Below, in pieces: positions 1 through 9,905 of a DNA stretch of 64,000 nt. How positions within the stretch are numbered: the stretch's first letter is position 1; each line of letters starts with the position of its first letter. The notes under the pieces were generated by a model. That model was not told where the DNA came from. It saw nothing but the letters and a program-made list of their open reading frames with translations, and did no database searches. This DNA comes from Bacteroidia bacterium (GTDB taxonomy: Bacteria; Bacteroidota; Bacteroidia; CAIKAF01). A program made the translations under genes and the position numbers. Where the stretch lies: positions 1 through 64,000 of the forward strand of contig JAUHWY010000003.1 in assembly GCA_030427255.1 (NCBI GenBank). Direction: 5' to 3'.

Positions 1-72
1 AACCGGGGTGCCGGATTCCCATTCTTGGAGAATCTTTACAATTTGAGTTGGGGAAAACTTGCTCTTTTTCAT
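1..72 (-). CDS. IS3-family transposase OrfA, N-terminal fragment at window edge
   Basis: The minus-strand frame from the ATG at 72 reads MKKSKFSPTQIVKILQEWES and stays open to the left edge, so it is absent from the ORF track. The pattern MKKSxFxxxQIVxIL is the classic start of IS3-family OrfA, a helix-turn-helix protein (HTH_8/transposase_8) that binds the inverted repeats. OrfA normally has about 90-110 residues and overlaps a downstream orfB that encodes the DDE catalytic domain and is read by -1 frameshifting. Only 24 codons are present. The family call rests on the motif and on the correctly placed IS terminus upstream. Confidence 0.8.
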   Translation of the reverse strand, partial: MKKSKFSPTQIVKILQEWESGTPV

Positions 73-127
73 AGACAGTCAAATTTAATTCTAGTTTTGG
101 ACTGTCCGGTTTTGGGGGAAGCTTACA
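1..127 (-). mobile_element. End of an IS3-family insertion sequence (partial, runs off the left edge)
   Basis: On the minus strand the element begins with TGTAAGCTTCCCCCAAAACC, a TG-start, C-run/A-run terminus typical of IS3-family inverted repeats. It is followed about 55 bases later by the start of an IS3 OrfA reading frame. Only the orfA-proximal end is in the window, so the other repeat and any target duplication cannot be seen. The terminus sits inside an ATPase gene and supplies that gene's premature stop codon. Confidence 0.8.
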
Positions 128-329
128 GATATACTTTGGATCTAGTATCTATCTTTAATGATGTTTCAACACATCGCAAAACGCTACTTTTACCAAATCT
201 TCTTGGCCCAATTATGGCAACGGAATTTCCGTTATTTGCTAATGAAATTAGCTGTTTCAATACCGTTTCTCTTCCAAATAGTTCAGAAGGATTAGTTATG
301 ACTGTTTTTGATGAAAAAGCATTTGCCAT
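123..329 (-). pseudogene. P-loop ATPase gene truncated by IS3 insertion (5' fragment)
   Basis: The 68-residue frame starts with a FGRE box (residues about 18-21) and a Walker A motif GPRRFGKSS (about 41-49). This is the start of an AAA_16/STAND-like ATPase that would normally be several hundred residues long. The frame ends at CTG TAA exactly where the IS3 terminus TGTAAGC begins, so the stop codon is donated by the transposon. The start codon lies one base after the stop of the 1307-residue gene (TAG-G-ATG), so the two were probably co-translated. The missing C-terminal part should lie beyond the IS, outside the window. Function is unknown; the partner also ends in a P-loop ATPase of similar type. 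Confidence 0.75.
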
Positions 330-330
330 C

Positions 331-3300
331 CTATTCGACTAATGTTGTTAAAATTAAATTAATATCAGGATGGTGATTTGCCCACCATCTTCTAAATAAA
401 TCCACGCTTAAATTATAAACAGGTATCCCTTCATCTTCTTGTTGGATTATGATTTTCTTTTCTTTTAATAGGTTTATTGCGTCAGCAAGCATGGGCCTGA
501 AAGCACTAATTTTCGTGTCAGACCAAAGTTTTTGTAGTTCATTAAAACCAACGCCTCTTGGGTCTGTTACTCTATTTTTATTAAAGTGTACAATGCTTGA
601 AATCAATACAGCCACTTCTTTAGGGTCAGTTGGACTAAACTGATTGTTTTGAAAAATATTCTCAGGCAATTTCTTAACTAATGATTTCGATGAAGAAGGG
701 TTTTCTCCGATTAATATTTTGATTACTTTTTCAACTTCAGGAAAACCTATTACCCTGCGTTTATTCTCTGATGCATAATAGCCACAATATTTGCAAATTA
801 TCTGTATAAAGTAAGGTACTCTACCAGATAAGAATTTTATGTGTTCTATTGCTTCTGGAGTAAAGGAAAGTTTATCATCAATAACTTCAATAAGTTCTTC
901 TGCCGCTTCTTCATTTATATCATTTATTTGCTCCTCAATTGCATTAACGAGTTGTCCTGTGATTCCATATCTCTCATCTCGAATGAGTGTTTTTATATCA
1001 TACGTCCCTGCAAATACGAAGCTAGCTAATTCATTAAGTGAGAATTGTCTAAGATTATGTAAAAAAGCTGAATTTATTGTGCCGTCGTCTATTAATGTTT
1101 TGATGAAGGAAAACTCGTCAATAAAAAAGATTGGGTATACATCTATATCATTTAAATATTCAAGAATAAGTTTAAAGTCCTTAGCCCTAACATTTTCTCC
1201 TATTTTTAAGCCAGTTATATCCAATTTATATTTATTTGCATATTTTTCAAGCTCTTCGAAAGTCTGTTGATATAAAATATAATTCCAAAAGTCTGAGGCT
1301 CGTTTAAAACTTGCTGCTTCTGATAAGTCCCAACTAAATGTTAAGACTAATATTTCTTTTCCTTTTTTTGTAAATGTATCACCTTCAATATATTTCTTTA
1401 AGTATTCTAGTATTGAACTTTTTCCAGTCCTTGTTAAGCCATACAATATGTACGGCTTATCTTTTTCGACAGATAAATAATGTTGTGCTAAATCTGCAAT
1501 TAACTTTTTTCGACCCTTGAATAATTGTTCAGAAGGTATTGGCCCATCCCTCCAAGGGATATCTTCATAAGTTAGAACAGACTGTGGTTCTTCTTCGATA
1601 GTAAACTCAAAATGAGAAGCAGATAAAGTTTTCTTTTGATAGACAGGTGAAATATCAATCTTGATTTCAACAGCTTTAGAATCTTTTAATAGATTTGGAG
1701 CGATGACGAAGTTGGTTTCAATTTTTCCACCAGAAGGTATTTCAATTTCACTACTATACGGGATATCAATACTTTCTTCGTAAATAGTTGACTCACAATG
1801 AATATTTAGTGCAAATCCTTCAGCAGTTGCCTCACCATTATTCTTAATAATTATTGGTGCAGTGATTTCATCATTACTTACTATGTAGTAAGGGGGGTCA
1901 ATACTTATTTCAAGTTGCGGATATGATTGAGTTACTTTTTCTTCAAGTAATGAATCAATTTCTTTTTTCCATTTGGATAACAATCCGAAAAAGAATGTCC
2001 TTCCATAGAATGTGGTGTTATCATTAATAAAACGAAGTTGCTTTTCTATAATTGACCTTGATTGAATAAGAATATTAAGTCTTTCTCTTTCACCTCTATT
2101 AAGGTATGGCTTTAATAATTCAATTATTTTATCAATTTCATTTTTAACTTCTATATCAGTTGAACTGAGGAATTTATTAAATCCTTTTATTGCAGACCAT
2201 TCATTAACTAACTGTGGTACATTATGAGGTTCAATTTCTATGATAAATACATTATTCAGGCTCTCTACAAAGTTCTTTACAGAATGCCGTCTGTTTAGAA
2301 AAATATTTTTTAAGAATTCGCCTGGCTTCAGTTCAATGTTAATACTACTTTCTTCATTTTGGTTTATAAGAGTATATATTTCCTTGGTTCTGGATGAACT
2401 AGAAAAATCTCCATACAATACCTTAATGCCATTTGGATGGTAGTTAAGGTTATTCCAAGCATTTATACTAGAGGCTCCGCAATCTACAATTACCTTGTAA
2501 GCAATTGATTCTATTTCTTTATTTCTTGTTTTTATACAGTCTTTGAATACAGTTGCAAAATTTCCTTTAAAAAGTTCATTAAAGTCAATATCACTATCTT
2601 TTTCAATGTGATAAACGGCTAATCTTAATTTTAAATAATTTGCCAAAATTGTTACTAATAATTTTGAATCAATATTCGAAAGAAGGTTTAAAGATTCAAT
2701 ATAATAACTGCAAGCACTGTCGCTGCGTCTAATAAGATTAAGAACTGTTTCACTTTTTGAGATTATTGAATTTTTAAACTGTAGAAATAATGAATTGCCT
2801 TTTAACATTGAATAATAAGCAACTGACTCTAAATAATCCTGCAAATCATAACTACCAATATTTAATTCGCTAAAGGCTTTAGCTGCTTCTAAATAGAGAG
2901 GATATCTTTCAGACATGTCAACTCCACGAGTATTTTTGGCTTCTTCAAGTATGGCCTTTGCCACAAATGCAGTAGGCTTACCACCATTACGTATAATATC
3001 TGGATGAGTGTATTTATGTTCTTTAATATCAAGGTCAATCATTTTACTAATGGCAGTGGTGTCATCATCTGTTTCAATTAGCAAATGTTCATCGGCTTCC
3101 TTATTTGTTGGTTGCTCAACCCTAACAGTCTTTCCTTCAAATTGCTTTAAAAGGTTTACAGCGAAATTGTTATTGGGGTTTAAACCTAGAGCTTTCTTAA
3201 CAGAAGATAGCGCTAATGCCTGCTTATCGATATTTTGTGCTTGAAGCCTCGCCAATTCAGTATATAAATGACTTAGATTATTAGCTGGTGATTTGATTAA

Positions 3301-4254
3301 CTCATTAAATCTAATTAACTCCTGATAAGAATTTTCAGATAAAGCAGGATTGTTGAGTGAAGAATAAATCTGTGCTTTCTTTAACAGTAGACTACTTCTG
3401 TATTTATTATCAATTGTGCTTTGTTTTAACTCTTGATCTATTGAATTTAATGCATCTTCATATTCTTGTTGACGGATTAGGTCGTTTATTCTTTTTTCAA
3501 TTTGCTTAAATGCCTTTGTATTCTCTGAATTTTTAGGTGACTTAACATCTATTTTTTTAATCTCCTTTTGCCGCTCATTTTTATTTAAGGTTTTAAAAAA
3601 TCTAATAAGAATTCCAATTTCCGGATACTTTTTATCAATGTTAGTTCTAATAATATAAAGACATAAACTTGCTTTTTCAAAATCATCGATTTCAATATAC
3701 GTAACTAATTCATTCGCAAAAGCGGAGAGACTTTGTGGTTTTGCTATTGAATTACATATAGCAACTTTCCCAACTCTTGAATAGTAAACAACTACTACTG
3801 GGATTAATGATCCAATTTCGAATGCCTCAATTTCATTCTGTAAATCGGGTTGATATATCTTACTATTAGGAACTAAAATCTTACTATGGTCTTGGTTAGA
3901 GGCAACGCATGTGGAGCCCTTGACATCAATTATATTTGCATTTGGCTTTATGAATTCATCAACTCGGCCTAGTTTTTGTCTAAGGGATTTGGCAGCTTCA
4001 AGGATTTCGTTTTTCGGAGGCTTTTCTTCAATACTTGGTATTTTCTTTTCTTTTAATTCAGTATTTGTTTTTGAAATTACCTCCCATCCACCAATTAGTT
4101 TATCGAAAAATCTATTTTGATTGTTATCATTAGCTTGTAGTAAAACGAAATTTTCACCAATAGAAGTAACTATACCTTCTGGTTCTTTTCCAGTGGTTAA
4201 GTAAAGTTTTACTTTATCCCCAATTTTTATGTCTTGCTTAAATAAGTCAAACAT
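331..4254 (-). CDS. Large multidomain protein: Sm-like N-terminus, TPR/helical region, beta-sandwich, C-terminal P-loop ATPase
   Basis: This is a 1307-residue protein I cannot assign to a named system. Residues about 8-60 (IGDKVKLYLTTGKEPEGIV) look like a small Sm-like or KOW-like barrel. Residues about 255-375 contain TPR-like helical repeats. A helical region follows, and residues about 790-885 form a beta-sandwich with IIIKNNGEATAEGF, as in CARDB-like domains. The C-terminal ATPase has GLTRTGKSS (Walker A, about 940) and IFFIDE (Walker B, about 1045), then a winged-helix-like tail. It has no signal peptide or membrane segment, so it is probably cytoplasmic. It is the upstream gene of a two-gene unit with the IS-cut ATPase. 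AT-rich base composition and the DUF262 and integrase neighbours suggest a transferred defence module; that role is inference. Start ATG 4254 is preceded by an AT-rich stretch. Confidence 0.8.
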   Translation of the reverse strand: MFDLFKQDIKIGDKVKLYLTTGKEPEGIVTSIGENFVLLQANDNNQNRFFDKLIGGWEVISKTNTELKEKKIPSIEEKPPKNEILEAAKSLRQKLGRVDEFIKPNANIIDVKGSTCVASNQDHSKILVPNSKIYQPDLQNEIEAFEIGSLIPVVVVYYSRVGKVAICNSIAKPQSLSAFANELVTYIEIDDFEKASLCLYIIRTNIDKKYPEIGILIRFFKTLNKNERQKEIKKIDVKSPKNSENTKAFKQIEKRINDLIRQQEYEDALNSIDQELKQSTIDNKYRSSLLLKKAQIYSSLNNPALSENSYQELIRFNELIKSPANNLSHLYTELARLQAQNIDKQALALSSVKKALGLNPNNNFAVNLLKQFEGKTVRVEQPTNKEADEHLLIETDDDTTAISKMIDLDIKEHKYTHPDIIRNGGKPTAFVAKAILEEAKNTRGVDMSERYPLYLEAAKAFSELNIGSYDLQDYLESVAYYSMLKGNSLFLQFKNSIISKSETVLNLIRRSDSACSYYIESLNLLSNIDSKLLVTILANYLKLRLAVYHIEKDSDIDFNELFKGNFATVFKDCIKTRNKEIESIAYKVIVDCGASSINAWNNLNYHPNGIKVLYGDFSSSSRTKEIYTLINQNEESSINIELKPGEFLKNIFLNRRHSVKNFVESLNNVFIIEIEPHNVPQLVNEWSAIKGFNKFLSSTDIEVKNEIDKIIELLKPYLNRGERERLNILIQSRSIIEKQLRFINDNTTFYGRTFFFGLLSKWKKEIDSLLEEKVTQSYPQLEISIDPPYYIVSNDEITAPIIIKNNGEATAEGFALNIHCESTIYEESIDIPYSSEIEIPSGGKIETNFVIAPNLLKDSKAVEIKIDISPVYQKKTLSASHFEFTIEEEPQSVLTYEDIPWRDGPIPSEQLFKGRKKLIADLAQHYLSVEKDKPYILYGLTRTGKSSILEYLKKYIEGDTFTKKGKEILVLTFSWDLSEAASFKRASDFWNYILYQQTFEELEKYANKYKLDITGLKIGENVRAKDFKLILEYLNDIDVYPIFFIDEFSFIKTLIDDGTINSAFLHNLRQFSLNELASFVFAGTYDIKTLIRDERYGITGQLVNAIEEQINDINEEAAEELIEVIDDKLSFTPEAIEHIKFLSGRVPYFIQIICKYCGYYASENKRRVIGFPEVEKVIKILIGENPSSSKSLVKKLPENIFQNNQFSPTDPKEVAVLISSIVHFNKNRVTDPRGVGFNELQKLWSDTKISAFRPMLADAINLLKEKKIIIQQEDEGIPVYNLSVDLFRRWWANHHPDINLILTTLVE

Positions 4255-4648
4255 TTATATATTATGATTTTTAGTTTTTATGATTAGGTACAAAACGGAT
4301 CTTATGGTTTGGCCTGTGTTTCGGATTGTGCAGTTTGGGTAAAACCAAATGTACCGTCTGTGCGGCTGGCTAAAAGATATTTTAAAAAATGCCAAGGGTG
4401 GGCTTTTACTTTCTTTTCTGTCAACTGTCCCAATAGCAAAACACGGTCAGTTTGAAAGTCTGTCTGATTGGTAGATATAGTCTGTATGTCAATTCCATTT
4501 ACGCTCATTGTTTCGTTTTGTAGTCTGTCTTTTTAGCATTGGTGGTAAAGATATCGGGTATGAAACGTAGGGCTTTTCGAAGCTCTTAACTGTCCGCTCG
4601 AAACTAAGCTTGATAAGTGCCCAAAACTTGCGGAAACCACTGTCTGCC
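4255..4648. other. Intergenic gap, no convincing gene
   Basis: This 394-base gap separates the 1307-residue gene from the DUF262 gene. It contains a 68-codon minus-strand ORF (4302-4508) with no recognisable motif and no start signal. The remainder looks like non-coding debris, possibly an eroded mobile-element flank. I see no promoter, tRNA or repeat that I can support. Confidence 0.5.
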
Positions 4649-6265
4649 CTATGGTTTTATACCCATTGGTGGCGGTAGTACCAAAGTCTTCATAGATTCA
4701 ACAATCAATTTACTTCTTTCATCAACAAAGCCATCATAATCGTCTATTTTCAATGATTCATATGTTGTTTCATTTATAAAATTCGACTTTAACACAGGCC
4801 AAAATGATTCTCCTAGATTGTTCTCCATTTCTTTAAAATACTCTGAAGGTTTTTTATCAAGAATCTCACGATTATCACCGAGGTTAAGCATGCAAATATT
4901 GGAGTGATAATTAATCTTTTTGTCGGAAACCCCTAATCTATTTAAAAATGCTTTTGGAAATATATGATGAAACTCAAGTCTATTAATATTAGCAAGTGAC
5001 TTGTAGGTATCAATTTTGTCACCATTTAAAAAGCTTAAAGGCTGATTATTTGCAAGTAGTAATGCATATGCTGTACTTGTGGCTTTATTTAATCGAAAAT
5101 AATCTTTGGCAAATCCTTCGAAGTTTACAACGGTTTCGATTGGGAACTCTTCTTTTTCCCTTAAAGCAAAAGCTCTTACGTCCTTTAGTGTACTAGTTAT
5201 TAGACCTGTATTTGCTGAACCATAATATTTACTAAAGGAGGATTTCCAAAACCAACTTTTTAATATTTGTTTTTCATTATATGTTGGTCTTGGGTTTAGG
5301 TTGAAAAATTCAACTAATAGAGTCAGTTGAAGTCCATAAGGTAGATTTTTAATGGATTTCAATGGAAGTTCTGTAGTAACGAAATCGACCGCTAGCGTAT
5401 ATGCTTCTTTTGTAGATTTAGCAGCTATTTTTAATTCATCAGGAGCTTTATCTCTTAGCTTATCAATACTTTCCTTGTGTATTCCAAGCCCTGCACAAGC
5501 TGAAATATTTCTTAAAATATGTTCATTTTGAATTAGTTCAAAATTCTTGTCTTCACACGCATTTTTTACTTCATCTATAGCATCACTTAAATCAAAACCA
5601 CCTTTCCAAGTTGCTGCACGCATTAAATCTACCATAGTCAATTGTCGCCCCGAACTATTAATTCTTTCGAAAATAGGAGCTACTTCATCCAATTCCATAT
5701 CTCCAATTGTTACTGACGCTAGCTTGTAATCTTTTATAGAATTAAGCAACTTAGTTGCATTATTTGTGTACTTCTCTTTTTTAGGACTTGCTTCAAATGC
5801 TTTACATTGGTTGAGAAAGCTCGAAGTGTCCATAAGTTTATTTAGAGGAAAGTAATTAAGTTTTTCTTCTCCTTTAGAGTGTACAAACTCTTCCTTTTCA
5901 ACATCAAAGGATACGTTCCATTCGCTGTTTACATTAGCACCATTCCAATATAATGTTCCACAGAGCGATGATAGTCTTTGCTGTCCATCGAGAAGATAAT
6001 TAAAAGGATAATCTTCTGATCTAAATTTTATATCAAGCTCTCCAATCTTATTTTCACTTGCTAATTCTTGCTTGGTATGCCAAAGCAGAATACTTCCAAT
6101 CGGATATCCACGATAAATACTATCTAGCAACTTTAATATATCTGTTTTCTTCCAAACGAATGGGCGTTGAAATTTGGGAAGTTTGATATCACCATCTTTT
6201 ACTCTTGTAACAAGCTCTTCAATTCTAAGAACTTCTGGTCTAGGGTCTATTTTTTTCTTTGACAT
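4649..6265 (-). CDS. DUF262/HNH protein, GmrSD-like (type IV restriction-related)
   Basis: The 538-residue protein has the DUF262 (GmrS) signature: FQRPFVW at about 32-38, GYPIGSILLW at about 53-62 and the invariant DGQQR at 93-97, a ParB/Srx-like NTPase fold. The C-terminal half ends in an HNH-type motif, RLEFHHIFPKAFLNRL (about 430-445), resembling the DUF1524 (GmrD) nuclease half. Single-chain DUF262-HNH proteins act as modification-dependent nucleases or anti-phage effectors in characterised relatives (GmrSD, BrxU, SspE); the activity here is inferred. It lies alone in an AT-rich island beside the 1307-residue ATPase gene and an integrase stub. There is no methyltransferase nearby, which fits a type IV mode in which host DNA need not be modified. 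Confidence 0.85.
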   Translation of the reverse strand: MSKKKIDPRPEVLRIEELVTRVKDGDIKLPKFQRPFVWKKTDILKLLDSIYRGYPIGSILLWHTKQELASENKIGELDIKFRSEDYPFNYLLDGQQRLSSLCGTLYWNGANVNSEWNVSFDVEKEEFVHSKGEEKLNYFPLNKLMDTSSFLNQCKAFEASPKKEKYTNNATKLLNSIKDYKLASVTIGDMELDEVAPIFERINSSGRQLTMVDLMRAATWKGGFDLSDAIDEVKNACEDKNFELIQNEHILRNISACAGLGIHKESIDKLRDKAPDELKIAAKSTKEAYTLAVDFVTTELPLKSIKNLPYGLQLTLLVEFFNLNPRPTYNEKQILKSWFWKSSFSKYYGSANTGLITSTLKDVRAFALREKEEFPIETVVNFEGFAKDYFRLNKATSTAYALLLANNQPLSFLNGDKIDTYKSLANINRLEFHHIFPKAFLNRLGVSDKKINYHSNICMLNLGDNREILDKKPSEYFKEMENNLGESFWPVLKSNFINETTYESLKIDDYDGFVDERSKLIVESMKTLVLPPPMGIKP

Positions 6266-6294
6266 AGTGTTTTGTTATTACCGCCAACTCGTTT

Positions 6295-6319
6295 ATAAAT
6301 GAGGCCAAACCTCATTTAT
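6295..6319. terminator. Perfect 10-bp hairpin upstream of the DUF262 gene
   Basis: ATAAATGAGG and CCTCATTTAT pair perfectly around a five-base loop. The hairpin lies 30 bases upstream of the DUF262 start. No strong T-run follows on either strand, so it could be an operator or a weak terminator. Confidence 0.4.
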
Positions 6320-6414
6320 CCACTCTCAATGGTAGGCTAAGTGATGGTTTTCCTCATTCGTTTATTCTTTGCTAATATAAGTTGTTTTCACAAATCATGG
6401 AACAGTGAACGGAC

Positions 6415-6570
6415 CTATTGAAGTAGCCGGTTGCTAACTTGCGTGTACATCTCTGTTGTCTTGCTGCTCTTATGCCCAAGCAACTCTTGAATGACTCGCA
6501 AATCGGCACCCGCCACAAGCAGTTGCGTTGAATAGCTGAGCCTCAGCAAATGAAGCGTAGCTTTCTTGCA
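6415..6570 (-). pseudogene. Tyrosine recombinase (XerD/phage-integrase family), C-terminal remnant
   Basis: No ORF of this frame is in the track. Read on the minus strand to the TAG at 6417-6415, the sequence encodes [17 protein letters not shown], then [20 protein letters not shown] and TQVSNRLLQ. This is the conserved C-terminus of tyrosine recombinases, including the LGHxxxxTTxxY segment with the nucleophilic tyrosine. The RHSFATH box has become RLSYSTQ, so two usually conserved histidines are lost. No start codon or N-terminal domain is present; upstream sequence turns into a GC-rich repeat. It is a decayed integrase stub marking the right edge of the AT-rich island. Confidence 0.85.
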
Positions 6571-6580
6571 GACTGCTGTT

Positions 6581-6630
6581 TAGCCTAAGGTTTCACCCGC
6601 AACACAGCCTACGGTTGAAACCGTGGGCTA
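6581..6630. repeat. Short palindromic REP-like element
   Basis: TAGCCTAAGGTTTCA and TGAAACCGTGGGCTA form an imperfect inverted repeat (13 of 15 positions) around a 20-base spacer, directly beside the integrase stub. It resembles RAYT-associated REP repeats, but no RAYT transposase is in the window. Confidence 0.5.
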
Positions 6631-6669
6631 GCAAAAATCTCCAAACGGAGCTTAACGCGCCCCGGCGGA

Positions 6670-6784
6670 GGCCAATTAGCCTGCCGAAGTGGGGTGCTCA
6701 GCCGCCGCGGGGGCAAGAGCGACCACAGGAAGCTCCTTGCCCCCGCATAGCGGCGTAGCTACCCCACAAGGCAGCTAATGGCCG
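6670..6784. repeat. GC-rich foldback element, copy 1
   Basis: A long imperfect hairpin: the outer arms GGCCAATTAGCCTGCC / GGCAGCTAATGGCC and the inner arms GCGGGGGCAAG / CTTGCCCCCGC pair nearly end to end. It fills the gap between the island edge and the TPM gene and belongs to the family seen in at least nine other gaps. Confidence 0.6.
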
Positions 6785-6821
6785 GAGACGGATAAGGCGC
6801 CCAAAAAAAACCAAAAAAATT

Positions 6822-7586
6822 CTACCAGGAACCGCCGGCACCGCCGCCGCCAAAGCTTCCTCCGCCAAAACCGCCGAAACCGCCGCCACCGCCAAAGCCG
6901 CCGCCGCCACTAAAGCCACCGCCGCTCCCAAAGGTGGTGCCCCAAAAAATGGGACCGCCGCCTCTAAAACCGCCGCCTTTGCCGCCGCCGCCCTTGTTCT
7001 TCCGGCCAAAAAAGAAGCCGCCAACCAAAAAGGCAATCACCAGCAACAAGAGCAATAAAGGCATGTACTTTTCGCGCTTTTCGGCCGCAGTAAGCTCGGA
7101 CTCGTACTCGCCGCGCGAAGCAGCCATGAGCGCATCAACCGCCTCATTAACCCCCTGGTAATACAGGCTTTCTTTAAAATTGGGCACGATGTGCCGCTCT
7201 ATAATCCGCTTTGCCAAGGCATCCGGAATGGCGCCCTCCAAGCCATAGCCGACCTGTATGCGCACTTCCCGGTCTTGCATGGCCGCATACAACAGCACGC
7301 CATTGTTTTTTTCGCCCGAGCCAATGCCCCAAGCCTCGGCAATGCGTAGACTATAATCAAAGGCATCTTCGCCCTCCAAACTATTGTCCAAAATCACCGC
7401 AATTTGGTTGGAGGTGCTGTCGTAAAACTGTACGAGCTTTTGCTCCAGGCTATTGACTTGATTTGAACTGAGTCGACCCGCAAAATCATAGACCAGTTGT
7501 TTCTCTTTCTTAGGTATTTGCTTGGCTTGTAGTCCGCCGGCAAAGGCCAATAGAAAGAAAAAACTTAGTAAGCGCCATTTAGTCAT
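6822..7586 (-). CDS. Secreted/membrane TPM-domain protein (YgcG family) with glycine-rich tail
   Basis: I take the start at ATG 7586, which gives 254 residues, rather than the longer track start. It yields a clean signal peptide (MTKWRLLSFFFLLAFAGGLQA) and an ATGACTAA overlap with the upstream gene. A TPM (DUF477) domain spans about 30-170, with VYDFAGRLSS near its start and QVGYGLEGAIPDA near its end. A transmembrane segment (PLLLLLLVIAFLVGGFFFG) follows, then a tail made almost entirely of Gly, Phe and Ser ending GGAGGSW. TPM domains face the extracytoplasmic side and are linked to membrane protein quality control; the exact role is unknown. It is the last gene of lemA-TPM-TPM, a recurrent unit. 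Confidence 0.9.
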   Translation of the reverse strand: MTKWRLLSFFFLLAFAGGLQAKQIPKKEKQLVYDFAGRLSSNQVNSLEQKLVQFYDSTSNQIAVILDNSLEGEDAFDYSLRIAEAWGIGSGEKNNGVLLYAAMQDREVRIQVGYGLEGAIPDALAKRIIERHIVPNFKESLYYQGVNEAVDALMAASRGEYESELTAAEKREKYMPLLLLLLVIAFLVGGFFFGRKNKGGGGKGGGFRGGGPIFWGTTFGSGGGFSGGGGFGGGGGFGGFGGGSFGGGGAGGSW

Positions 7587-8034
7587 CGGAACCTCCTTCG
7601 GGTTTGCCGAACGAAAGATCATCGGAAAGTTCGTTGGGGTTGTTTTTGGTCTTGGGGAAATAGCTTTGAAGCTTTTCGCCCACGTCACGGATGGCCAGGC
7701 ACAAGCCTTCGGTATATTTTCCTTGCTTAAAATACTCCACCATCAAATCCTTCTCGGCTTGCCAAAAATTATCGCCCACTTTTTCGTGGATGCCTTTGTC
7801 GCCCACAATGGCCAATTTATGGTCCTTATAAGCTACAAAAATTAAAACGCCATTTCGGGCGTCGGTTTCGTGCATGCCCAATTTGCCAAACCAGTCTACG
7901 GCTTCTTGGTAGGCATCGCCGGAGCAGGTGGCTTCGAGGTGCACTCGGATTTCGCCATTGGTTTGGGCCTCAGCACTGCGGATGGCTTCAATAATGGTTT
8001 CTTGTTCTTGTTCGCTAAAAAAAGTTTCAGGCAT
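7579..8034 (-). CDS. TPM-domain protein (DUF477), soluble paralogue
   Basis: The 151-residue protein is a bare TPM domain: SAEAQTNGEIRVHLE near 20-34, RNGVLIFVAYKDHKLAIVGD around 61-80, and KVGDNFW near 85. There is no signal peptide or membrane span, so unlike its downstream paralogue it probably stays in the cytoplasm. The C-terminus is acidic. It lies 2 bases after lemA and overlaps the next TPM gene by 8 bases, indicating translational coupling within the lemA operon. The biochemical function of this family is not established. Confidence 0.9.
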   Translation of the reverse strand: MPETFFSEQEQETIIEAIRSAEAQTNGEIRVHLEATCSGDAYQEAVDWFGKLGMHETDARNGVLIFVAYKDHKLAIVGDKGIHEKVGDNFWQAEKDLMVEYFKQGKYTEGLCLAIRDVGEKLQSYFPKTKNNPNELSDDLSFGKPEGGSDD

Positions 8035-8036
8035 AA

Positions 8037-8633
8037 TTAAAACTCGAATTGTACTTCAGGAGCCACATCGGCGCCTTCGGTCATTTCGAAATATCCTTTT
8101 TCTTCAGCGCCCATCATCCCGGCAAATATATTGTTGGGGAAGCGCTTGATGTAGGTATTGTAATCTCCAACGATGTCGTTGAATTTTTTGCGCTCCACGG
8201 TTATGCGGTTTTCGGTTCCTTCCAACTGCACTTGCAAATCGCGAAAGGCCTCGGTGGCTCTAAGCTGTGGATACTGCTCGGCCACTACCATCAAGCGTCC
8301 CAAGGCTTGGGAAAGTTCCCCTTGTGAGGATTGGAAGGCTTTGATTTGATCCGGGCTCAATTTGCTGGCATCCACGGTCATTTGGGTGGCCTTGGCACGA
8401 GCTTCCACCACTTGGGTTAAGGTGGTTTTTTCAAAATCGGCAGCACCTTTAACGGTGTTCACCAAGTTGGGAATGAGGTCCATGCGGCGTTGGTACACAT
8501 TTTCTACTTGTGCCCAGGCTTTCTTGGTAGCCTCCTGCTTGGTTACGATGGTGTTGTATTTTCCGCAACCGGTCCAGCCCACAATAAGAACCAAAAGACC
8601 GCCTACTATAAGTACAATATGTGAAGTTTTCAT
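8037..8633 (-). CDS. lemA: LemA family protein
   Basis: The 198-residue protein has one N-terminal membrane anchor (about 5-25) and the LemA core: QVENVYQRRMDLIPNLVNTV (42-61), then LQVQLEGTENRI (about 133-144) and YNTYIKRFPNNI near 160-171. LemA proteins are N-out membrane proteins with a helical coiled-coil domain. Bacteroidota genomes usually pair them with TPM-domain genes, as here. The molecular role is undetermined. The start is supported by TAAATTTG lying four bases upstream, which predicts a leaderless transcript for the operon. Cys 23 in GWTGC could also be read as a lipobox, leaving lipoprotein processing possible. Confidence 0.93.
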   Translation of the reverse strand: MKTSHIVLIVGGLLVLIVGWTGCGKYNTIVTKQEATKKAWAQVENVYQRRMDLIPNLVNTVKGAADFEKTTLTQVVEARAKATQMTVDASKLSPDQIKAFQSSQGELSQALGRLMVVAEQYPQLRATEAFRDLQVQLEGTENRITVERKKFNDIVGDYNTYIKRFPNNIFAGMMGAEEKGYFEMTEGADVAPEVQFEF

Positions 8634-8637
8634 AGTA

Positions 8638-8645
8638 CAAATTTA
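8638..8645 (-). promoter_or_regulatory. -7 promoter element of lemA operon (leaderless type)
   Basis: TAAATTTG on the minus strand matches the Bacteroidota TAnnTTTG element and lies 4 bases before the lemA ATG, so transcription should begin at or next to the start codon. Confidence 0.7.
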
Positions 8646-8657
8646 CAAAAAAGAGCC

Positions 8658-9905
8658 TCACCAAGAGATAATCACCTGTCCATTGCCACTTCTTTGGCCG
8701 GCTGTTGTGGATGTATTTGAAGTTTGGTAGCTGCCATGGCCTCCGGTGTAGGACGATCCGCCGCCTCCCCCTTGATGGGAAAAGCCACAAGCTCCGCCAT
8801 ACCAGCCACCGCCACCGCCGCCTACCCAGCCTACGGTCACTCCGCTGTTGGCATCGCCACCCAGACCAAAACTGCCATTTTGGCCTCCGGTACCGCCGGC
8901 GCTTTGGGTACCACCGGTCGATGTTCCATAATTGGTACAGCCTGCACTTCCTCCAGTTAGGCCGCCGCCATGGCCGCCCGTACAATTGCTGTTGTCGGTA
9001 GATCCCCCACCTCCACCGCCTACTACTACGCGGTGGTTTAGGGTTTGGCCTCCCAGCCTTACATCGGAGGCTCCCCCTCCACTTCCGGCTTCGGAGGCAC
9101 TGTTCCAAGAATAGCCGCGCCCGCCGCCGTTAAAAGCATTTTGACTGTAACTATTGGCAGGAACCGCAGGTCCTTGCTGACCCACATAAATGGATACCGT
9201 TTCTCCGGAGCTCACCGGAAAGGTAGCCTTGGCATAGCCTCCGAGACCTCCCTGATTGGTTCCGGACCAACCTTCGGCTCCCCAACATTCTACGGTAAGC
9301 GAACAAACGCCGGCGGGTACCGTCCAAGTTTGCACACTACCGGTGTAATTAAAGGTTTGCGACTGGTTTTGGCTTCCACATTGCAATACCGTTACGCTAA
9401 CGGTATCTGCGGTGCTGCATCCATTGGCATCGGTAACGGTCAAAACAGCTGCATAGGTCCCTGCATTGGACCAAGTTACGCTTGGGTTGGCCAAATTGGA
9501 AGAAGCCGGAGTTCCCGAAGCAAACTGCCACAAATAGGTCCAGCCTTGCTGGGTTTGGGTGGGCTGAAAAGAGATGCTTTGGTTCAAACCGGCCGAAGCA
9601 TTTCCGCCTTGAATGGCCACATTGGGAAAGCTGTTGCAATTGCATTCCAAGCTGCGCCATCCCGCCTGAAAATAAGATTCAACGCATTGGGTATTGGTAT
9701 TGTAAATAACCAAACCAACGGCAGGATTCGCAATGGAATTCCGTTGCGCCGTCGTTAACCTGGGCAACAAAAGCCCTTTGTCGGTAAAGTCTACTTCTAA
9801 TCCGGCCGAAGGATCGGGACTACCTCCTCCCGTGCCAATACGCACACCTTGCGCTTGTAGGGCATAGCCTGCGCATAAAACTAAGATAAAGGCGAGTTTT
9901 CTCAT
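8658..9905 (-). CDS. Secreted protein with PKD-like and glycine-rich domains
   Basis: I start at ATG 9905 (415 residues), because MRKLAFILVLCAGYALQAQG is a clean signal peptide; the longer track start adds only polar residues. An N-terminal segment (DFTDKGLLLPRLTTAQRNSI) is the module seen before tail-fibre-like regions in many Bacteroidota surface proteins. A PKD-like domain follows (LTVTDANGCSTADTVSV, about 150-180). The C-terminal half is a Gly_rich domain (FNYTGSVQTWTVPAGV, then runs such as VVVGGGGGGS) ending GQVIISW. No type IX sorting domain is visible. It is probably an exported surface or matrix protein; function is unknown. It is divergent from the Dph6-like gene. Confidence 0.8.
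   Translation of the reverse strand: MRKLAFILVLCAGYALQAQGVRIGTGGGSPDPSAGLEVDFTDKGLLLPRLTTAQRNSIANPAVGLVIYNTNTQCVESYFQAGWRSLECNCNSFPNVAIQGGNASAGLNQSISFQPTQTQQGWTYLWQFASGTPASSNLANPSVTWSNAGTYAAVLTVTDANGCSTADTVSVTVLQCGSQNQSQTFNYTGSVQTWTVPAGVCSLTVECWGAEGWSGTNQGGLGGYAKATFPVSSGETVSIYVGQQGPAVPANSYSQNAFNGGGRGYSWNSASEAGSGGGASDVRLGGQTLNHRVVVGGGGGGSTDNSNCTGGHGGGLTGGSAGCTNYGTSTGGTQSAGGTGGQNGSFGLGGDANSGVTVGWVGGGGGGWYGGACGFSHQGGGGGSSYTGGHGSYQTSNTSTTAGQRSGNGQVIISW

Follow-up and report, generated by a model that had tools for sequence, protein, structure and literature searches.

What kind of system is encoded by two adjacent ATPase genes at the start of a contig from a Bacteroidia bacterium, and how did the second of them come to be truncated? 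The window, i.e. the whole stretch of 64,000 nucleotides analysed here, runs from the start of contig C5 to its 64 kb mark; the genome comprises 3.2 Mb in 57 contigs. On its minus strand, an open reading frame (ORF) for a large protein of 1307 amino acids (aa; 331–4254) is separated by a single intergenic base from the start (329) of a second ORF of 68 codons (123–329). The large protein comprises a putative Sm-like amino terminus, TPR repeats, a probable β-sandwich and a carboxy-terminal STAND-like ATPase (ATPase1), and the short ORF encodes the beginning of another P-loop ATPase (ATPase2) with the Walker A motif GPRRFGKSS. The 1307-aa frame, the one-base gap and this motif had been noted in an earlier prediction made from the DNA letters (the original prediction), and all three were confirmed. 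Based on genomic context and domain content, we infer with a probability of roughly 55% that the pair is the core, made up of two ATPases in tandem, of a mobile conflict system of defence type, disrupted by transposition of an IS3-family element.

IS3-family insertion in the ATPase2 gene

The left end of an IS3-family insertion sequence (IS) occupies positions 1–127 on the minus strand, with the terminal inverted repeat TGTAAGCTTCCCCCAAAA at 110–127 and the start of OrfA at about 1–72. As position 1 of the window is also the first base of the contig, the contig breaks within the IS repeat. Seven further copies of positions 1–127 are present in the same genome at 92–98% identity; most of them sit at contig ends, where a collapsed repeat would be expected to lie, and the terminal sequence TGTAAGCTTCCCCCAAAA is common to the IS copies. 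In the least disturbed copy (contig C50), this terminus leads into an IS3-type OrfA that has a helix-turn-helix and leucine-zipper-like sequence. The left (TGTAAGCTTCCCCCAAAA) and right (TGTAGGCTTCCCCTAAAC) inverted repeats are imperfect, with 17 of 26 positions matching in an ungapped comparison, and begin with TG.

The ATPase2 gene retains its 5′ part, codons 1–67 (128–329, minus strand), which is 52% identical to residues 9–64 of an intact homologue from another Bacteroidia genome (G496), and is closed at 68 codons by a TAA stop derived from the IS end (123–125, minus strand). Using the intact homologue as query, we located the missing part on contig C3 of the same genome (124–1518), where it corresponds to homologue residues 67–524 with 46% identity and begins directly after the right end of the IS; this continuation of the frame had been set beforehand as a test. 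The insertion is flanked by a 4-bp target-site duplication that reads TATC on the gene strand and lies at 128–131 of the window and at 127–130 of C3. Joining both flanks restores an in-frame empty site, SKVY-PVYFDFKE, to be compared with VIFPIYFDFKD in the homologue. A second IS copy (contigs C39/C35) likewise shows a 4-bp duplication, ATTA. The repeat copies, the inverted repeats, OrfA and the target duplication thus bear out the view that an IS3-family end supplies the stop codon, and the second IS end and the duplication that had been called for were both found.

These data establish that transposition of an IS3-family element split ATPase2 at codon 67. Because the cut lies just past the Walker A motif, this assembled copy should be inactive, and a search with the G496 homologue yielded no other or intact ATPase2 copy in the genome. 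The pair is therefore almost certainly disabled here by the insertion, and the earlier wording that the system was switched off holds as loss of ATPase2 in this assembled copy. With both flanks and the target duplication in hand, the insertion documents how a natural genome lost a gene of defence type.

Domain architecture and recurrence of the gene pair

We next consider the large protein, whose domains all lie on the minus strand. TPR repeats were assigned to residues 243–373 (3136–3528), as residues 250–370 were confidently modelled by AlphaFold2 (predicted local distance difference test score, pLDDT, of about 73–89) and the top Foldseek matches for this stretch were TPR domains (E 1e-4). 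A β-sandwich of CARDB type covers residues 779–867 (1654–1920), its Pfam match (E=5e-4) lying slightly below the cut-off with 20.6 versus 22.7 bits. The amino-terminal residues 12–62 (4069–4221) possibly form a five-stranded Sm/Hfq-like domain: the best PDB profile match was a weak one to Hfq (E=0.12), the AlphaFold2 model comprised five strands at low confidence (pLDDT 50–60), and the segment is conserved in the alignment with a homologue from a second Bacteroidia genome, G655. Of the domains originally proposed, the TPR region is thus upheld, the β-sandwich falls just under its cut-off and the Sm-like amino terminus stays tentative. A cold-shock-like domain at residues ~100–175, seen by eye upon aligning the G655 homologue, lacked profile support and is not claimed. 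ATPase1, together with a carboxy-terminal helical, winged-helix-like part, spans residues 905–1307 (334–1542) based on hhalign and on its motifs; Walker A (GLTRTGKS) is located at residue 939, Walker B (IFFIDEF) at residue 1042.

Matches to AAA_16, nSTAND1 and ATPase_2 were obtained for the window proteins and their homologues, mostly below or near the respective cut-offs. Walker A and Walker B motifs are present in both ATPases, with the exception of an Acinetobacter ATPase2 that has DG instead of DE in Walker B, and hhalign related ATPase1 to ATPase2 (95.7% over 234 columns). Domain searches found no effector-associated domain (EAD) in the window proteins. Neither the 1307-aa protein nor the 1650-aa homologue of G655 matched any family in PADLOC 2.0, in line with the initial failure to assign the pair to a named system.

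The pair recurs outside the window, as had been anticipated, and in every locus found its two genes are adjacent or overlapping. Within the same class it is present in 3 of 385 genomes, including its own. The G496 contig begins within the large gene, whose product is 65% identical to that of the window at its carboxy terminus and which overlaps an intact 525-aa ATPase2 gene by 8 bp. In G655 (JAUIKF010000031.1, a Bacteroidia metagenome-assembled genome), a 338-aa protein with NYN (7e-11) and EAD11 (1.1e-14) profile matches precedes the 1650-aa large protein by 17 bp, and the latter gene overlaps that of a 521-aa ATPase2 by 4 bp. The most distant version resides on Acinetobacter ursingii plasmids, where a WYL-domain gene and an HsdR-like gene (748 aa) are followed by a 1323-aa protein comprising N6_Mtase, Methylase_S and a carboxy-terminal ATPase, its gene overlapping that of a 520-aa ATPase2 by 8 bp. 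Here, homology of ATPase1 to the combined window and G655 sequences was detected by hhalign at 99% over 361 columns (E 7e-18). Taken against the three contrary outcomes named with the original prediction, the ATPase frame does continue beyond the IS, the pairing does recur and the large protein matched no housekeeping family.

The reach of the searches depended on the query. A scan of genome contigs with the single protein gave nothing, and with a two-row alignment it returned only the G655 locus again (L052). No match was obtained by tblastn of the window large protein against plasmids, and the longer homologue as plasmid query reached Acinetobacter. Viral contigs, scanned with all queries, contained no match. 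Bacteroidia and Actinobacteria commonly encode stand-alone ATPase relatives of about 400 aa; matches of this kind, i.e. those on Rhodococcus, Enterobacter and Vibrio plasmids and those of ~380–420 aa in Bacteroidia, were not counted as members because they lack an ATPase2 partner. A 1453-aa match in a further genome (G485) was rejected as an α-2-macroglobulin-like protein.

Turning to the carboxy terminus of ATPase2, Pfam HEPN_Swt1 matched the G655 protein with E 3.4e-5 and 24.6 bits against a cut-off of 27.5, making a carboxy-terminal HEPN-type RNase effector likely in this homologue. An R-x4-6-H motif, which is short and may occur by chance, is found in the carboxy-terminal helical domain as RHSLGKGH on C3, RHSIGGGH in G496 and RNPLAH in G655. 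For the lineage of the window and G496, it is the RHSxGxGH motif that suggests a HEPN-type RNase. An hhalign comparison of the ATPase2 carboxy termini across lineages did not support a shared domain.

Proposed function and alternative explanations

In the mechanism that we propose, the large protein would act as sensor or scaffold, combining a putative RNA-binding-like Sm domain, TPR repeats, an Ig-like β-sandwich and a STAND-like ATPase. ATPase2, which is related to ATPase1 and would end in an all-helical domain, would be its partner. Upon recognition of an invader signal by the front end, both ATPases would exchange nucleotide and assemble together. The assembly would then switch on an effector, namely a HEPN-type ribonuclease at the carboxy terminus of ATPase2 carrying the R-x4-6-H motif, or elsewhere an EAD11-tethered NYN ribonuclease or a type I restriction apparatus. 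Both the nucleotide switching and the RNase output are predictions from sequence.

The individual domain types are known, since EADs have been proposed as coupling adaptors (PMC7159879) and fusions of HEPN (Swt1/Abi2 family) to STAND-ATPase, TPR and S1 are on record (Npun_F6454, MED222_16016 and Desac_1927; PMC3710099 Table 1); their combination is apparently unnamed. The pair shares with these fusions the STAND-like ATPase, the TPR and, tentatively, an RNA-binding β-barrel-type domain and a Swt1-like HEPN, but consists of two adjacent genes with two paralogous ATPases and an added β-sandwich, has a putative Sm-like domain in place of S1, and its HEPN is marginal or at motif level only. NTP-dependent conflict systems with effector-associated domains (PMC7159879, PMC8195603) resemble it in their core NTPase and variable effectors, as exemplified by NYN-EAD11 in G655; the pair nevertheless does not belong to the ternary systems of vWA-MoxR-VMAP/iSTAND type, and no EAD was detected in its window proteins. 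Likeness to type I restriction-modification (HsdR/M/S) is provided by the N6_Mtase, Methylase_S and HsdR-like components of the Acinetobacter locus, where, however, ATPase1 carries M and S on the same polypeptide and the ATPase2 gene comes next, whereas the window version has no R, M or S part. The archaeal-type ATPase candidate PDC-S01 of PADLOC, which is encoded by one gene and reported to be joined to a PD-(D/E)XK domain (PMC12988326), matches the P-loop region of ATPase2 over the first 45–80 residues only, and the pair consists of two genes.

It is possible, although at present a tentative extension, that the pair represents an unnamed modular defence family, in which a constant ATPase1/ATPase2 tandem is plugged into different recognition front ends (an RNA-binding Sm/TPR sensor in Bacteroidia, type I M-S/R in Acinetobacter); the same switch and RNase-type effector could then be driven either by a restriction enzyme or by an RNA sensor. 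Such a two-gene tandem behind both RNA-binding-type and type I front ends was not found in the literature searched, which is no proof of novelty. If the core is real, one shared ATPase switch would link type I restriction with RNA-sensing STAND/HEPN-type immunity, an example of plug-in architecture in the bacterial immune repertoire that could be tested.

TPR-bearing STAND ATPases are often regulators, and the pair could alternatively be a signal-responsive regulator of the MalT/ORC-like type, controlling mobile-element transcription or DNA partitioning rather than killing or blocking phages. The carboxy-terminal part of ATPase1, which resembles a winged helix as judged from the alignment, and the HEPN effector escaping profile detection in the window lineage would fit such a role. 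We consider it unlikely, given the fusion to type I methylase and specificity domains with HsdR linkage in Acinetobacter, the NYN-EAD11 RNase linkage in G655 and the defence-island setting with no element-core genes beside the pair. Truncation could also reflect the assembly or the population, with the IS present in part of the cells only and the pair functional in the others. The contig break within the repeat and the unassembled IS interior at the ATPase2 site leave room for this, but the genome holds no intact ATPase2 copy, IS ends lie on both flanks and the second IS copy has a 4-bp duplication of the same kind, rendering it rather improbable.

The remaining alternative concerns the upstream gene for a DUF262/GmrSD_N-type protein (4649–6265, minus strand; Pfam 4e-32, PADLOC PDC-M55C 1.7e-88), which the original prediction had taken, with the AT-rich setting and the integrase stub, as a pointer to a mobile, probably defence-type system. 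Its product could supply the effector nuclease if it and the 1307-aa protein worked together in a three-gene system. The DUF262 gene lies on the same strand and in the same AT-rich island as the large gene, and its family is known for nuclease-type defence proteins. The gap to the large gene, however, amounts to about 395 bp, and 170 plasmid records contain relatives of the DUF262 protein (up to 43% identity), with no plasmid yielding a relative of the large protein when the window protein is the query. The gene is also absent at two of the three other loci, G655 and Acinetobacter, the G496 contig being cut upstream. Being a widespread separate family that does not stand beside the pair in these loci, DUF262 is probably not its partner, and a three-gene system appears rather improbable. 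No description of PDC-M55 partner genes was found in the literature searched. Between the DUF262 and large genes, a short ORF and its surroundings (4302–4508) gave no family match and are probably non-coding.

Several observations weigh against a tandem-ATPase defence core as proposed here. The pair was seen in four independent loci only, and homology of ATPase2 among the three lineages is weak outside the P-loop part by hhalign. The HEPN match stays below the Pfam cut-off in G655 and was undetected by profile in the window, G496 and Acinetobacter proteins; the Acinetobacter ATPase2 has no R-x4-6-H motif either. Likewise, a β-sandwich could not be demonstrated by profile in the Acinetobacter protein, the score lying within those of shuffled sequences, and the single-sequence AlphaFold model of the G655 ATPase2 was unusable (pLDDT 34).

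The island and its surroundings

The pair resides in an island with a GC content of 31–34%, compared to ~51% outside. On the C3 side, the remainder of ATPase2 is followed by a PDC-M16A-type helicase and then, at 3634–8965 (L051), by DarT and DarG of intact lengths, AbiD/Abi_2 and a PDC-S26/PDDEXK_4 protein, a PD-(D/E)XK candidate, before folC and other housekeeping genes. The defence-type assignment of the original prediction thus stands as to its setting, with DarTG, AbiD and PDC-S26 across the IS, and the function itself is deduced from context and domains. The helicase comprises 444 aa compared to 690–930 in its family and is closely followed by another IS3-type OrfA remnant (about 2870–3400 of C3, L051); both observations indicate that the island was struck by transposons more than once.

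On the window side, the DUF262 gene is followed by the 3′ remnant of a tyrosine integrase at the island edge, recognised from its translation (6416–6570, minus strand), and by TPM-domain and LemA genes. The TPM/LemA flank is shared by a same-genus genome, whose LemA protein is 96% identical, but the contents differ there and include HepT/MntA-like genes. The integrase 3′-end stretch (6278–6821 of the window) occurs twice in that genome (L146, 4464–5030 and 15928–16379), bracketing quite different genes. The integrase-remnant edge thus looks like an insertion hot spot. The ATPase region of the large protein was absent from 14 relatives, five genomes of the same genus and nine of the same family.

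A separate recurrent ATPase pair was observed in Bacteroidota, consisting of a ~400-aa ATPase followed, adjacent or overlapping, by a ~1060–1090-aa ATPase with Sel1/TPR-like repeats (L045, 7960–9207 and 9792–12977; L124, 5278–6462 and 6455–9730), and a pair resembling it starts on contig C17 of G655 (L048). In the same G655 genome, the DNA polymerase III α gene (L044, 1106–5167) contains an apparent intein, extending from CLVGETEIVDAKTGEV to HNFVANDIIVHN.

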